From Arcobacter nitrofigilis DSM 7299 (lineage in GTDB: Bacteria; Campylobacterota; Campylobacteria; Campylobacterales; Arcobacteraceae): a stretch of DNA of 64,000 nucleotides. The notes under the pieces were generated by a model that was not told the DNA's origin, made no database searches, and saw only the letters and a program-made list of their open reading frames with translations. Shown piece by piece: positions 66-59,843 of the stretch; positions within the stretch are counted from its first letter, which is position 1; the number at the start of each line of letters is the position of its first letter. Made by a program: the position numbers and the translations under genes. Location: positions 1,116,001 to 1,180,000 of the forward strand of contig NC_014166.1 of NCBI RefSeq assembly GCF_000092245.1. Direction: 5' to 3'.

Positions 66-594
66 ATATTCTCTCTTGAAGAGGTAAACCTCTTCGCTTT
101 TCTTACTTTTTGATCTCGAAAAAGTAAGCAAAAAAAGACTGCCGAATTGATGAAGGCAAGCTCCCTTTCAGTTATATGTTTATTTTCTGCCCTGCAAAAC
201 TCACTAAAATGACCGTTTAGGTCATTTCTTAACGCTCAAACAGTTTCGGGCTTTACCGAAAATAAACATCTAACTTCCAGCTTCATCAAAGGCAGAAAGA
301 AATACCTATAGTTCAAATTCTTATTTATAAAGTAATATATAAACACCAAATAATATTGCTACATCTACAGGAGCCGAGCGTTTATTTTTCTCTTTTTGAA
401 ATAAGATTGGTAACTGTCTGAGTGTTTAAAAGTTGCTAAACGCAAGTTTTAATAAACGAGTTTTACCAATCAGAAAAGATAAAAATAAAAAGTGAGGGAA
501 CCTTTGGCTTCGCAGCCGTAGTTGTTTTTGCTTACTTTTCGTCAATACAAAAGTAAGAAAGCGGAGAGGTTTACCTCTTCAAGAGAATAAATAT
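66..594. repeat. Structured interspersed repeat, copy 1 (inverted-repeat ends, no ORF)
   Basis: About 529 bp, visibly richer in G+C than its surroundings, without a convincing ORF. The ends are inverted repeats: the run at 71-110 is matched in reverse complement at 549-588. Each end also carries two local hairpins: gaagagg-TAAA-cctcttc (78-95) and a cttacttttt/aaaaagtaag hairpin (102-128) on the left, with equivalents at 565-578 and 530-559 on the right. Inside are a long helix 170-187/258-275 (one mismatch) enclosed by 139-155/281-295, hairpin aaatgacc-GTTTA-ggtcattt (207-227), helix 381-397/473-489, helix attggtaa/ttaccaat (406-413/463-470) and hairpin 428-450 with loop TAAAC. Related copies lie at 56829 and 59282. 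It may be a non-autonomous mobile repeat or a structured RNA; the sequence does not decide. Confidence 0.85.
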
Positions 595-837
595 AAGAAA
601 ATGTAGTTTCATCACAATTTTTGACAAATAGATATACATTATGTTGTTTTATTGGGTAAATATAAGAGTAAATGATACATAAAATTTTAAGAGAACTCTG
701 AGTATAGAATTTATTAATCACAATAAAGTAATATTTATTATATTATAAATACTACTAATTTAAGGCTATTTTATATAAAATATATGTTCAATTTAAATTT
801 AATATTAGTACTTAAACAATTAAAATAAGGATTGGAA
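595..837. other. Non-coding stretch between repeat copy 1 and the first complete gene
   Basis: A very A+T-rich spacer with no supported ORF on either strand. A TTGACA hexamer at 621-626 could be a -35 element, but no good -10 hexamer lies 16-18 bp downstream. The last part (821-830) holds the AAGG ribosome site of the next gene. Nothing else is evident. Confidence 0.4.
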
Positions 838-56733: not shown

Positions 56734-56740
56734 TCGATTA

Positions 56741-56828
56741 AAAATCTGGGATATGATACCAATTAATTGTAAATTGAATTATATCACAGAGGTTGAAATT
56801 TCATTTTTTTCTAATATATATTTTTATG
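56741..56828. repeat. Left flank shared by repeat copies 2 and 3
   Basis: From 56741 (aaaatctggg...) to about 56795 the sequence matches 59193-59250 with few changes, then some 30 bp differ before the structured repeat proper begins. Copy 1 lacks this flank. The segment starts 8 bp after the nuclease-like gene stop, whereas its counterpart supplies the last codons of the gene ending at 59218. Confidence 0.7.
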
Positions 56829-57353
56829 CTCATGAAGACTTAGCAGTCTTCGCTTTTCTTACTTTTTGATCTCGAAAAAGTAAGCAAAAAAGACTGCCGA
56901 ATTGATGAAGGCAAAGCTATCTTCCAGTTATATATTTATTTCCTGCCCTGCAAAACTCACTAAAATGACCATTTAGGTCATTTTTTAACGTTCAAACAGT
57001 TTCGGGCTTTACCGAAAATAAACATTTAACTTCCAGCTTCATCAAAGGCAGAAAGAAAAGACGATAGTTTTAACTGCTAGTTTATAAAGTAATATATAGA
57101 CACCAAATAATATTGCTACATCTACAGAAGCCGAACGTTTATTTTTCTCTTTTCTAAATAAGATTGGTAACTGTCTGAGTGTTTAAAAGTTCCTAAATGG
57201 AAGTTTTAATAAACGAGTTTTACCAATGAGAAAAGATAAAAATAGTAAGTGAGGGAACCCGAAGGGCTTCGCAGCTGTAGTTGTTTTTGCTTACTTTTCG
57301 TCAATACAAAAGTAAGAAAGCGGAGAGGTTTACCTCTTCAAGAGAATAAATAT
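56829..57353. repeat. Structured interspersed repeat, copy 2
   Basis: About 525 bp, collinear with copy 1 with scattered changes. The left terminal hairpin is gaagact-TAGC-agtcttc (56834-56851), different in sequence from copy 1 but still paired, while the right end keeps the copy-1 gaggtttacctc form. The inner hairpin is aaaagttcc-TAAAT-ggaagtttt (57185-57207), where copy 1 has ttgc/gcaa in place of ttcc/ggaa. There is no ORF. It fills most of the gap 56734-57435 together with its left flank. Confidence 0.85.
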
Positions 57354-57435: not shown

Positions 57436-57975
57436 ATGAGAAAAGAAGATTGGATGGACTCATCTTTGAAATTAGTTTCAAAACATGGTGTTGATATATT
57501 AAAAATCGATTCGCTCTGTAAAAAATTAAAAGTTACTAAAGGCTCTTTTTATCATCATTTTAAAAGTCACAAAATATTTATTGAAGAGATTTTAGAGTAT
57601 TGGTACAAAACTTTTACAATGGATATTATTGAGAAAAGTAAACAATTTGAAAATAATCCTCTAAAACAAATGGAGTTACTAAATAATACCATATATTCAA
57701 AAGACCTAAATATTGAAATCGAATTTAGAGCTTGGGGTCTTAGAAATGAACTTGTTTTACCATATATGGAAAAGATTGATAAAGAACGAATTTTAATACT
57801 AAGAAATATTCAAGATAAACTTAATCCTAATCTTGATGAAAAAATAAATGAAGAAATGACTTTGTTAATTTATTGTAAATTTCTTGGTACCTTATTTATT
57901 CAACCAAGATTATCAAGTACTAGAAATAAAGAACTTGACGATTTCTTATTAAATTTAGTACTTTCTAGCAAATAA
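57436..57975 (+). CDS. TetR-family repressor of a two-gene membrane cassette
   Basis: 179 residues. The helix-turn-helix shows LVSKHGVDILKIDSLCKKL and VTKGSFYHHFKSHKIF; the C-terminal half is helical and unassigned. It lies directly downstream of a promoter whose spacer and -10 form a long palindrome, and is followed after 26 bp by two membrane-protein genes. All three lie between repeat copies 2 and 3. Most likely it represses this cassette and itself. Confidence 0.9.
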   Translation: MRKEDWMDSSLKLVSKHGVDILKIDSLCKKLKVTKGSFYHHFKSHKIFIEEILEYWYKTFTMDIIEKSKQFENNPLKQMELLNNTIYSKDLNIEIEFRAWGLRNELVLPYMEKIDKERILILRNIQDKLNPNLDEKINEEMTLLIYCKFLGTLFIQPRLSSTRNKELDDFLLNLVLSSK

Positions 57976-58001
57976 AAATTAAAATCAAATAAAGGTATAA
58001 A

Positions 58002-58364
58002 ATGAAAAGATGGATTAGTAAATGGTTAATATTTGTATCAACAGGTCATACTATTGTTGGGTTTTTGTTATTTGGAAATATTTATATGCAAATGTTTTTA
58101 AATGGATTATTTAAAACAGTTAATTCTCCAAGTACTGCTGCTGCAGCATGGTTTTTACTTTTTGGATTTTTGTTGTTTATCGTAAGTTTTCTTATCTTAA
58201 TTATAGAAAAGGATGATGCATTAGAAGTTCCAAACTCAATAGGAATAGCACTTTTTATATTAACTACACTTGGAGTAATATTGATGCCTGCTTCTGGGTT
58301 TTGGTTAGTATATCCTGCTGCAATTGGTATTATATTAAAAAACAAAAAACAAAGATTTAACTAG
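58002..58364 (+). CDS. Four-span membrane protein, function unknown
   Basis: 120 residues. Predicted spans at about 10-30, 48-68 (AAAWFLLFGFLLFIVSFLIL), 78-98 and 100-115. FVSTGHTIVGFLLFG and the following LFKTV, with a P-S-T-A-A-A-A-W-F region, recall the small DUF6463-like proteins that I cannot confirm. AAAGG is present before the ATG. Its stop overlaps the next gene's GTG by one base (TAGTG), so the two are translationally coupled. Confidence 0.75.
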   Translation: MKRWISKWLIFVSTGHTIVGFLLFGNIYMQMFLNGLFKTVNSPSTAAAAWFLLFGFLLFIVSFLILIIEKDDALEVPNSIGIALFILTTLGVILMPASGFWLVYPAAIGIILKNKKQRFN

Positions 58365-59218
58365 TGTTTAAGTTTATAAAAAAACTGTTGGTTTTAGTCT
58401 TTATATTAGTTTTACAGGTATTAATATATTTTATTTTTATAGAACCTATAATTACACAATGGGGAGCTTCAAAAGAAGAAGTATCCATGTCAATGGTGGG
58501 TGATAATGATAATTTAAACATCACATCAACTAGAGCAATACAAATTGATGCAAATAAACATATTATTTGGCAATTACTTATGCAATTAGGTGCTAATAGG
58601 CAAGGTTTTTATAGCTATGATTTTATTGAGCATGAATTAGGAAATGAAGCTCAATATCAAAGTTTAAATACATCTAAAAACACAAATTTAAAAGTAGGAG
58701 ATATTGTTCATGGTTCAAGAAATAAAGGAAGTGCTTTAAGTGTTTACAATTTTCCAGTACTTTATGTAAAACCAGAAGAAAGCCTTGTTTTAGAAAATTG
58801 GGGTACATTTTTAGTAAAAAGTATAAATGAAAAACAATCTCGATTGATTGTTAGAACACAAGAAAAGAAAAGTGTTAATTTATGGACAAGTTTTAAAAAT
58901 CATTTGATTATTCCATTTCATTATATAATGGAACGACGAATGTTATTAGGTCTTAAAATGCACTCAGAACAAAGTAATAAATTTTCACCTAAGAATGACT
59001 TATTATGGTTTGGCGGAGTTGTTTCTTTATTTTGTTTGATTCTGTTGCTTTTTTTCAGACTAAAGGGAATTCTCCTTAAGATTATTATTACATCTTTTTT
59101 TGCTATTTTATGGCAAGTAATAGTATTTTTATTTGAACCTATATTTTTATATAGTGCAGTTTTATTAGTCGTTATATGTTTTATACTTTTTAAAATCTGG
59201 GGGCAGGATACCAATTAA
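58364..59218 (+). CDS. Membrane-anchored SRPBCC-like protein with repeat-derived C-terminus
   Basis: 284 residues from GTG 58364. An N-terminal span (about 6-28), then a SRPBCC/START-like domain (50-190: TRAIQIDANKHIIWQLLMQL, RQGFYSYDFIEHELGNE, VYNFPVLYVKPEESLVLENW given in part), then spans at about 222-240, 244-262 and 264-280. The last eight codons, KIWGQDTN, are encoded by a flank shared with repeat copy 2 (aaaatctggg...), so the original C-terminus was probably changed by repeat insertion or recombination. Coupled to the four-span protein gene; same TetR cassette. Confidence 0.78.
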   Translation: MFKFIKKLLVLVFILVLQVLIYFIFIEPIITQWGASKEEVSMSMVGDNDNLNITSTRAIQIDANKHIIWQLLMQLGANRQGFYSYDFIEHELGNEAQYQSLNTSKNTNLKVGDIVHGSRNKGSALSVYNFPVLYVKPEESLVLENWGTFLVKSINEKQSRLIVRTQEKKSVNLWTSFKNHLIIPFHYIMERRMLLGLKMHSEQSNKFSPKNDLLWFGGVVSLFCLILLLFFRLKGILLKIIITSFFAILWQVIVFLFEPIFLYSAVLLVVICFILFKIWGQDTN

Positions 59219-59281
59219 TTGTGAATTGAATTATGTCACAGAGGTTGAACCTTCACCTTTTTTTTAATGTTAGTTTTAAAT
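59193..59281. repeat. Left flank of repeat copy 3, overlapping a gene end
   Basis: 59193-59250 matches 56741-56795. The gene ending at 59218 uses the first 26 bp as coding sequence. As in copy 2, about 30 diverged bases separate it from the structured repeat. Confidence 0.7.
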
Positions 59282-59843
59282 TCTCATGAAGACTTAGTAG
59301 TCTTCGCTTTTCTTACTTTTTGATCTCGAAAAAGTAAGCAAAAAAGACTGCCAAATTGATGAAGGCAAGCTACCTTCCAGTTATATATTTATTTTCTGCC
59401 CTGCAAAACTCACTAAAATGACCGTTTAGGTCATTTCTTAACGCTCAAACAGTTTCGGGCTTTACCGAAAATAAACATCTAACTTCCAGCTTCATCAAAG
59501 GCAGAAAGAAATCCCTACAGTTCAAACTATCATTTGTAAATTTATTAAGTAAAAGTTTTAACATAAGACAATCAAAAATGCAAATGTCCTTATCCCACCT
59601 TTAGTTCCAACATCTACAGAAGCTGAGTGTTTGTTTTATCTTTTCGGAAAAGGCTTGCAACTGTTTGAGTAAATAAATATGCTAAATGCATATTTATTTA
59701 TGAGTTTTGCAAGACAGAAAAGATAAAACAATAAACGAAGGAACCCAAAGGGCTTCGAAGCCGTTGGTGGTTTTTTGTTTTACTTTTTGCCACCAAAAAG
59801 TGAAGAAGCGGAGAGGTTTACCTCTTCAAGAGAATAAGTATTT
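59282..59843. repeat. Structured interspersed repeat, copy 3 (diverged right half)
   Basis: About 562 bp. The left half (59311-59520) is nearly identical to copy 1; the left terminal hairpin (59288-59305) is of the copy-2 kind. The right half has quite different bases but equivalent helices: gttttatcttttc/gaaaagataaaac (59633-59645, 59717-59729), cttgcaa/ttgcaag (59654-59660, 59707-59713), and a perfect 13-bp hairpin with loop TAAAT (59670-59700). Near the right end actttttgccaccaaaaagt forms a hairpin where copies 1 and 2 have cttacttttc...aaaagtaag, then the shared gaggtttacctc end. No ORF. Confidence 0.85.

Follow-up and report, generated by a model that had tools for sequence, protein, structure and literature searches.

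Interspersed palindromic repeats are common in bacteria, though few of them have a known partner or rule. Among the systems that have been described, integron attC sites are generally known as sequence-poor, structure-rich single-stranded DNA hairpins that are read by shape. REP, BIME and REPIN sequences (RAYT, TnpA-REP) are short, intergenic, multi-copy palindromic hairpins, often arranged as inverted pairs, and the REP substrate is single-stranded DNA (see PMC3116915 and PMC3733652). Prokaryotic miniature inverted-repeat transposable elements (MITEs), such as QMITE, RUP, SPRITE and BOX, are non-coding, intergenic and form strong stem-loops (reviewed in PMC10969869), while group IIC introns are known to insert behind terminator hairpins into a structured DNA target (the structured target being described in PMC10190682). 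Each of these systems resembles in part the repeat considered here, a composite palindromic element of approximately 520 bp that is AT-rich in the genome of Arcobacter nitrofigilis DSM 7299 and is present in three copies in the window, i.e. the whole stretch of 64,000 nt that was analysed (positions 1,116,001–1,180,000 of NC_014166.1, the only contig of this 3.19-Mb genome).

The element is probably a non-coding palindromic DNA repeat that is mobilised in trans and recognised as a single-stranded DNA hairpin, being MITE-like or REP-like and often located at terminators. A DNA search of its own genome with the whole element returned 61 matches, including self-inverted ones, with 12 near-full copies of approximately 520 bp as well as half-copies and fragments, and the copies sit between genes. 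Relatives of the repeat are present across the bacterial family, and the core together with its surroundings is matched in Arcobacter sp. EP1. A previous sequence-only reading of this DNA had described a family of three copies lacking open reading frames (ORFs); all three are real, were found where it had placed them and contain no convincing ORF, but the family is larger than it had seen. The alternative it had raised, that the copies are pieces of a decayed coding element, is rejected on the same grounds, and no recurrent family was detected among 95 neighbouring ORFs in other phyla, where the neighbouring genes are mutually unrelated. The failure of that reading to recognise a named family was also borne out. 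In Rfam, neither the element nor the loci from other phyla gave a match above the gathering threshold, nor did permissive single-locus searches, which argues against a known RNA, and a literature search for the motif letters or for such repeats retrieved nothing relevant, its coverage of subscription journals being thin enough that an existing name is possible.

A full copy consists of two related palindromic units placed back to back in inverted order, with the apex motif on the minus strand in the left unit and on the plus strand in the right one; half-elements and lone units also occur. From each end, an inward-facing terminator-like hairpin (T1) is followed by a second hairpin (H2, CTTACTTTT...AAAAGTAAG) and then by the palindromic unit, whose apex comprises aaCTGTTTGA, an inner hairpin and GAGTTTT. 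The inner hairpin of Arcobacter-group members is long, with a loop that is mostly TAAAC or TAAAT and a stem that exists in several wholly different versions. The copies in the window are built as follows (window positions).

66–594 (homology approximately 72–588), plus strand: copy 1, composite palindromic element of two inverted units
77–96, plus strand: left T1 of copy 1, hairpin TGAAGAGGTAAACCTCTTCG then CTTTTCTTAC, facing inward
102–128, no strand assigned: left H2 of copy 1, hairpin CTTACTTTTTGATCTCGAAAAAGTAAG
139–295, minus strand: left unit of copy 1, palindrome CTGCC...GGCAG with the apex motif on the minus strand
195–244, minus strand: left-unit core of copy 1, ACTGTTTGAG-CGTTAAGAAATGACC-TAAAC-GGTCATTTTAGT-GAGTTTTG
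359–521, plus strand: right unit of copy 1, CTACATCTACAGGAGCCGAG ... core ... GAGGGAACC ... GCAGCCGTAG
413–464, plus strand: right-unit core of copy 1, ACTGTCTGAG, a hairpin with the loop TAAAC, then CGAGTTTT; adjoining stem GATTGGT/ACCAATC
531–557, no strand assigned: right H2 of copy 1, hairpin CTTACTTTTCGTCAATACAAAAGTAAG
565–578, minus strand: right T1 of copy 1, hairpin AGAGGTAAACCTCT then CCGCTTTCTT, facing inward
56829–57353, plus strand: copy 2, 91% identity to copy 1; T1 at 56833–56852, left-unit core at 56951–57000 (minus), right-unit core at approximately 57170–57221 (plus), right T1 at 57324–57337 (minus)
59282–59843, plus strand: copy 3, with another type of right unit (13-bp inner stem, loop TAAAT); T1 at 59287–59306, left-unit core at 59404–59453 (minus), right-unit core at 59660–59709 (plus)

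The terminal arms of copy 1 (66 nt, 73% complementary) are terminal inverted repeats of the kind that defines MITEs. T1, a G+C-rich hairpin followed by a T run, is found at the left end of all three window copies and at the right end of copies 1 and 2, and these end hairpins are the only ones with the form of an intrinsic terminator. The helices named in the sequence-only reading are present, and the copies fold far beyond their dinucleotide shuffles (copy 1, z = -13.4 as RNA and -13.1 as DNA; copy 2, z = -7.3; copy 3, z = -8.9 as DNA), the reverse and forward strands folding about equally well.

The core extends well beyond the Arcobacter group. A total of 84,980 genomes were scanned with the pattern CTGTTTGAGCG-N(0-30)-GCGAGTTTT, in which the bases between the two boxes were left free, and at least 118 stretches were found among the matches listed, to which the phylum, stem and loop counts below refer. 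They belong to approximately seven phyla (Bacteroidota, Bacillota, Pseudomonadota, sulfate-reducing Deltaproteobacteria, Aquificota, Patescibacteria and Campylobacterota), and the carriers include Flavobacterium, Elizabethkingia, Bacteroidales, Lachnospiraceae, Selenomonas, Clostridium, Ralstonia, Burkholderiales, sulfate reducers, Aquificaceae, a Patescibacterium and Arcobacter. In most of these matches, the core caps a palindrome whose stem sequence is unrelated. With the register fixed two bases outside the core, stem positions 1–7 are paired in 76–85% of 74 non-redundant hits, compared with approximately 25–47% for shuffled partners; all four pair types are found at each of these positions, and at position 9 pairing is at the background level. 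The 7-bp stem is perfect in 41 of the 59 hits that fold, and its pairs comprise 388 Watson–Crick, 4 G·T (1%) and 3 A·C combinations. One rule, a stem of 7 bp that is free in sequence but matched and is capped by 24 nt containing a DNA-type mini-hairpin, joins repeats from these phyla that are not linked by alignment and are absent from Rfam. The end hairpins and ends differ between phyla and lineages, while the core is common to them. The class is patchy, since strict patterns were matched by few genomes in samples of 200 Campylobacterota and 148 Bacteroidota. A core-only search of E. coli genomes found none. Inverted core pairs 0.2–4 kb apart also occur in other phyla (L163, L150, L132, L105), an arrangement like that of the window's composite element. 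A more far-reaching idea, which is put forward tentatively and is less probable than the reading given above, is that of a pan-bacterial system, in which a widely shared host or mobile protein would read the capped single-stranded DNA hairpin by shape, as a d(GNA)/d(GNNA) mini-hairpin in fixed asymmetric surroundings on any stem, and would copy or move whatever DNA bears it, favouring terminators and keeping one direction relative to the fork. If true, a single class would embrace palindromes from many phyla whose sequences are unrelated.

The sequence-only reading had left open whether the repeat acts as a structured RNA or as single-stranded DNA; a structured non-coding repeat it is, and the evidence leans to DNA. 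Two-base gaps between the boxes read NA in 74 of 74 cases (A29, T18, C15, G12) and three-base gaps read NNA in 34 of 35, so that the mini-hairpin is GC-GNA-GC or GC-GNNA-GC. GNA and GNNA loops closed by at least two G–C pairs form extraordinarily stable DNA mini-hairpins (PMC4686876), and d(cGNNAg) and d(gCNNGc) are described as stable DNA tetraloops (Nakano 2002, as cited in PMC5090098). The final A would also be expected from a plain conserved box AGCGAGTTTT, whereas a hairpin predicts that the closing pairs change together; as predicted, the Campylobacterota variants keep G-N-A while their closing pairs co-change (GCGTAGC, ACGAAGT, GTGAAAC, ACGGAGT and GGTGTAACC).

A structured non-coding RNA, i.e. 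a transcribed unit whose conserved internal loops and caps are bound or catalytic and whose gene would be spread by the repeats, is nevertheless the rival that has to be weighed here. The complex fold of the unit would suit such a role, as would conserved junction boxes (CATCTRCAGRAGCC, GGGAAC, GCAGCCG) that the window has in common with Lachnospiraceae and with another Campylobacterota family. In the right unit of the window, CATCTACAGGAGCC lies on the 5′ side of the apex and GGCTnCGCAGCCG on the 3′ side; both recur in the Lachnospiraceae elements, and the other Campylobacterota family has CATCTGCAGAGCC ... GGGAAC ... GAAGCCG together with the H2 hairpin; judged from these boxes, one structured family with exchangeable stems is suggested rather than chance convergence. 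The longer arms contain more G·T than A·C, and A–T, G–C and G·T but never A·C are seen at the apex pair, which says that the motif strand folds in single-stranded form but on its own does not tell DNA from RNA. On the other hand, 1% of G·T in the best-defined stem is low for so variable an RNA family, and the loops obey the DNA rule, 15 of the 34 four-base loops being non-GNRA where RNA would prefer GNRA. The terminator-like hairpins point inward at both ends and would therefore shield the inside from neighbouring transcription, Rfam is without a match even for the other phyla, and the core has no clear strand preference relative to genes there. An RNA is accordingly regarded as unlikely, and the DNA-type loops (including the non-GNRA ones), the G·T-poor stem, the inward end hairpins and the fork-linked direction described below favour DNA.

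Compensatory changes between copies had been taken in the sequence-only reading as a sign of selection on folding. When 17 left-unit and 13 right-unit hairpins are aligned, 99.3 and 96.7% of cells, respectively, are paired, and the covariation scores (0.289 and 0.147) exceed those of all 500 shuffles; registers slid by 1–3 columns are 25–53% paired and score 0–0.056. The pairing is thus real, but the conclusion drawn from it holds only in part. Within the Arcobacter group, many of the changes are whole-stem swaps among few haplotypes (AATGACC/GGTCATT vs AGAGTGC/GCACTCT), and because they come as blocks, independent events within the group are few; the independent evidence for paired change is that from other phyla. 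Two sister species carry the element at orthologous sites, but in inverted form or made of other units, and units have therefore been exchanged. Selection on folding does not follow from paired changes alone, as template switching can homogenise the arms of a palindrome. These observations would also suit a plain MITE, namely a decayed insertion sequence whose arms are kept alike only by template switching and gene conversion and whose core was inherited by descent and spread horizontally, and one lineage does contain a true MITE with IS66-like ends. However, descent alone would not fully randomise the stem while keeping a 24-nt asymmetric cap, arm homogenisation is strand-symmetric and yet the longer arms show more G·T than A·C, and the ends are unrelated between lineages, which makes this explanation improbable. 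What does speak for selection acting on a single folded strand is the conservation of the asymmetric core, together with the predominance of G·T over A·C in the longer arms.

The position of the element relative to genes points to terminators as possible preferred targets. In 10 of 19 elements, the start is no more than 20 nt from a stop codon and in some cases overlaps it, and an insertion immediately after a stop codon would be harmless because the element brings its own terminator-like hairpin at each end. The comparison of empty sites, which had been proposed along with the sequence-only reading, yielded the valS site, where the position of the element in A. nitrofigilis is occupied by a plain terminator hairpin in two sister species; further flank searches provided no usable empty site, as gene order differed. 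In other phyla, the core is rarer between divergent genes (6/67 vs 36/195 gaps). A large bidirectional terminator or mRNA 3′-end structure, spreading as a harmless or useful addition behind genes and forming DNA hairpins that have no role of their own, would account for these positions and for the hairpins at both ends. It would leave 400 bp of inner structure and the cross-phylum core unexplained, and it is the core, not the outer hairpins, that is common to the phyla, so that little credence is given to this explanation.

The full copies are also oriented with respect to replication. The dnaA gene, assigned from its own sequence and the genes that follow, is at base 71, and sampled GC skew is mostly positive to approximately 1.6 Mb and negative from 1.76 Mb, which places its switch near 1.6–1.75 Mb. 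All eight full copies at 0.80–1.21 Mb lie on the plus strand and all four at 2.06–2.73 Mb on the minus strand (Fisher p = 0.002), so that the direction of all 12 follows the replication fork. Among the genes sampled along the first replication arm there is no strand bias (90 plus vs 85 minus). In the mechanism proposed for a DNA repeat mobilised in trans, the active form would be a single-stranded DNA hairpin that is extruded or exposed on one strand as replication opens the site. A partner protein, presumably a trans-acting recombinase or transposase, would read by shape the conserved cap (aaCTGTTTGA, then a very stable GC-GN(N)A-GC mini-hairpin or a longer hairpin that replaces it, then GAGTTTT), with the stem beneath the cap free in sequence. 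In A. nitrofigilis, the two inverted units form one element of approximately 520 bp that faces with the fork and often occupies the place expected for a gene's intrinsic terminator.

Traces of mobility are seen in one group of metagenome-assembled genomes, in which the core palindrome lies within an element of approximately 240 bp with the ends GTAACTATTCAGC...GCTGAATAGTTAC, and four copies (L105, L119, L139, L175) have perfect 8-bp target duplications. GTAA ends and 8-bp duplications are hallmarks of IS66, and pieces of an IS66 transposase are present in one of the genomes with these elements. Core-bearing elements of approximately 130 bp with ends like GTAACCTTATG...ATATCAGTTAC were also noted (L072, L099 and L137 in Bacillota bacterium MAG.222; L149, L153) and are perhaps another MITE family that carries the core.

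Several observations weigh against a trans-mobilised DNA element. No mobilising protein was found, and none of the 13 Campylobacterota tested, A. nitrofigilis included, has an IS66 transposase. No clear target duplications were seen for the Arcobacter-group copies, and terminal repeats with duplications were detected at 4 of 66 cores vs 1 in a shuffled control, so they are not general. Among relatives, RAYT-type transposases were found in 9 of 12 that have BLAST-detectable elements and in 3 of 8 that have none; the comparison is weak, as some of these eight genomes may contain diverged copies and at least one of them (G003) carries the core. Replacement of a terminator is clear at one site only (valS). 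In 11 of the 12 copies, the element has the direction of the gene upstream of it, which partly confounds replication with transcription, and partial copies show no fork-direction bias. Finally, the G·T excess in the longer arms (G·T vs A·C, 33 vs 10 over phyla and 27 vs 4 in Campylobacterota) would be given by RNA folding as well.

Three candidate sources of mobility were rejected. IS66 is not retained as the mover in the Arcobacter group, since its transposase is absent and the window element has neither GTAA ends nor an evident 8-bp duplication. The RAYT association is weak and without linkage, as no core motif lies within approximately 1.5–2 kb of the RAYT loci examined, where REP/REPIN sequences would flank the gene. 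As to an origin from phages or plasmids, the whole element has no match in plasmid or phage records, and among 2.9 million viral contigs only three contain the core; core-only matches were obtained for 20 of 72,556 plasmid records at a loose threshold, and those in phages are short and mostly within genes.

The surroundings of individual copies contain further repeats. Copies 2 and 3 share approximately 90 bp of upstream flank (AAATCTGGG..GATACCAATTAATTGT...; window 56738–57058 and 59189–59511) and, in direct orientation, bound a cassette-like block of three genes (57436–59218) encoding a TetR-type regulator, a DUF6463 protein and a 284-aa ORF. A 23-bp sequence, CTCAAAGAGAGTGCAAGCACAAG, which resembles a tiny nested repeat, is inserted beside hairpins of several copies and is also found at other places in the genome (L005, L006, L007, L012, L021, L317, L329:6435). 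Inserts of approximately 33 bp with CGAAGTGACTAAATCC or CGACTAAATTCCAG lie exactly in hairpin loops (H2 of L006, L007 and L009; the inner apical loop of L035 and L305). The right flanks of two copies (window 595–800; L006 2088–2400) are alike despite different genes, TATAAGAAAATGTAGTTT...TTTTGACAAATAGATATACAT...AATTTAAGGCTATTTTATATAAAAT, and are probably another intergenic repeat.

If the core is a recognition signal in single-stranded DNA, it gives a sequence handle by which the protein that reads it may be found, and its paired changes would reflect the folding of DNA rather than RNA, which would be a warning for covariation-based pipelines of RNA discovery. Compared with the described systems, the IS66 family shares GTAA-beginning ends and 8-bp duplications with the S015_14-type elements and may be the parent of that MITE only, since the ends of the window element differ and the transposase is absent in the 13 Campylobacterota. 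Group IIC introns differ from the element in that it has no Rfam intron or ribozyme match and no reverse transcriptase reading frame. Unlike in attC sites, the conserved part is the cap and not the basal R boxes, and no cassettes were seen nearby, no search for attC motifs having been made. REPs are 20–40 bp long with a GTAG/CGTC tag, whereas the units described here are approximately 150 bp long, have a different, capped apex and do not have their core motif near the RAYT loci examined. One lineage shares terminal repeats and 8-bp duplications with MITEs, and no such duplications were seen in the Arcobacter group; what sets the repeat apart from them is a single apical core found over phyla, on stems that are freely replaced and between ends that are unrelated.
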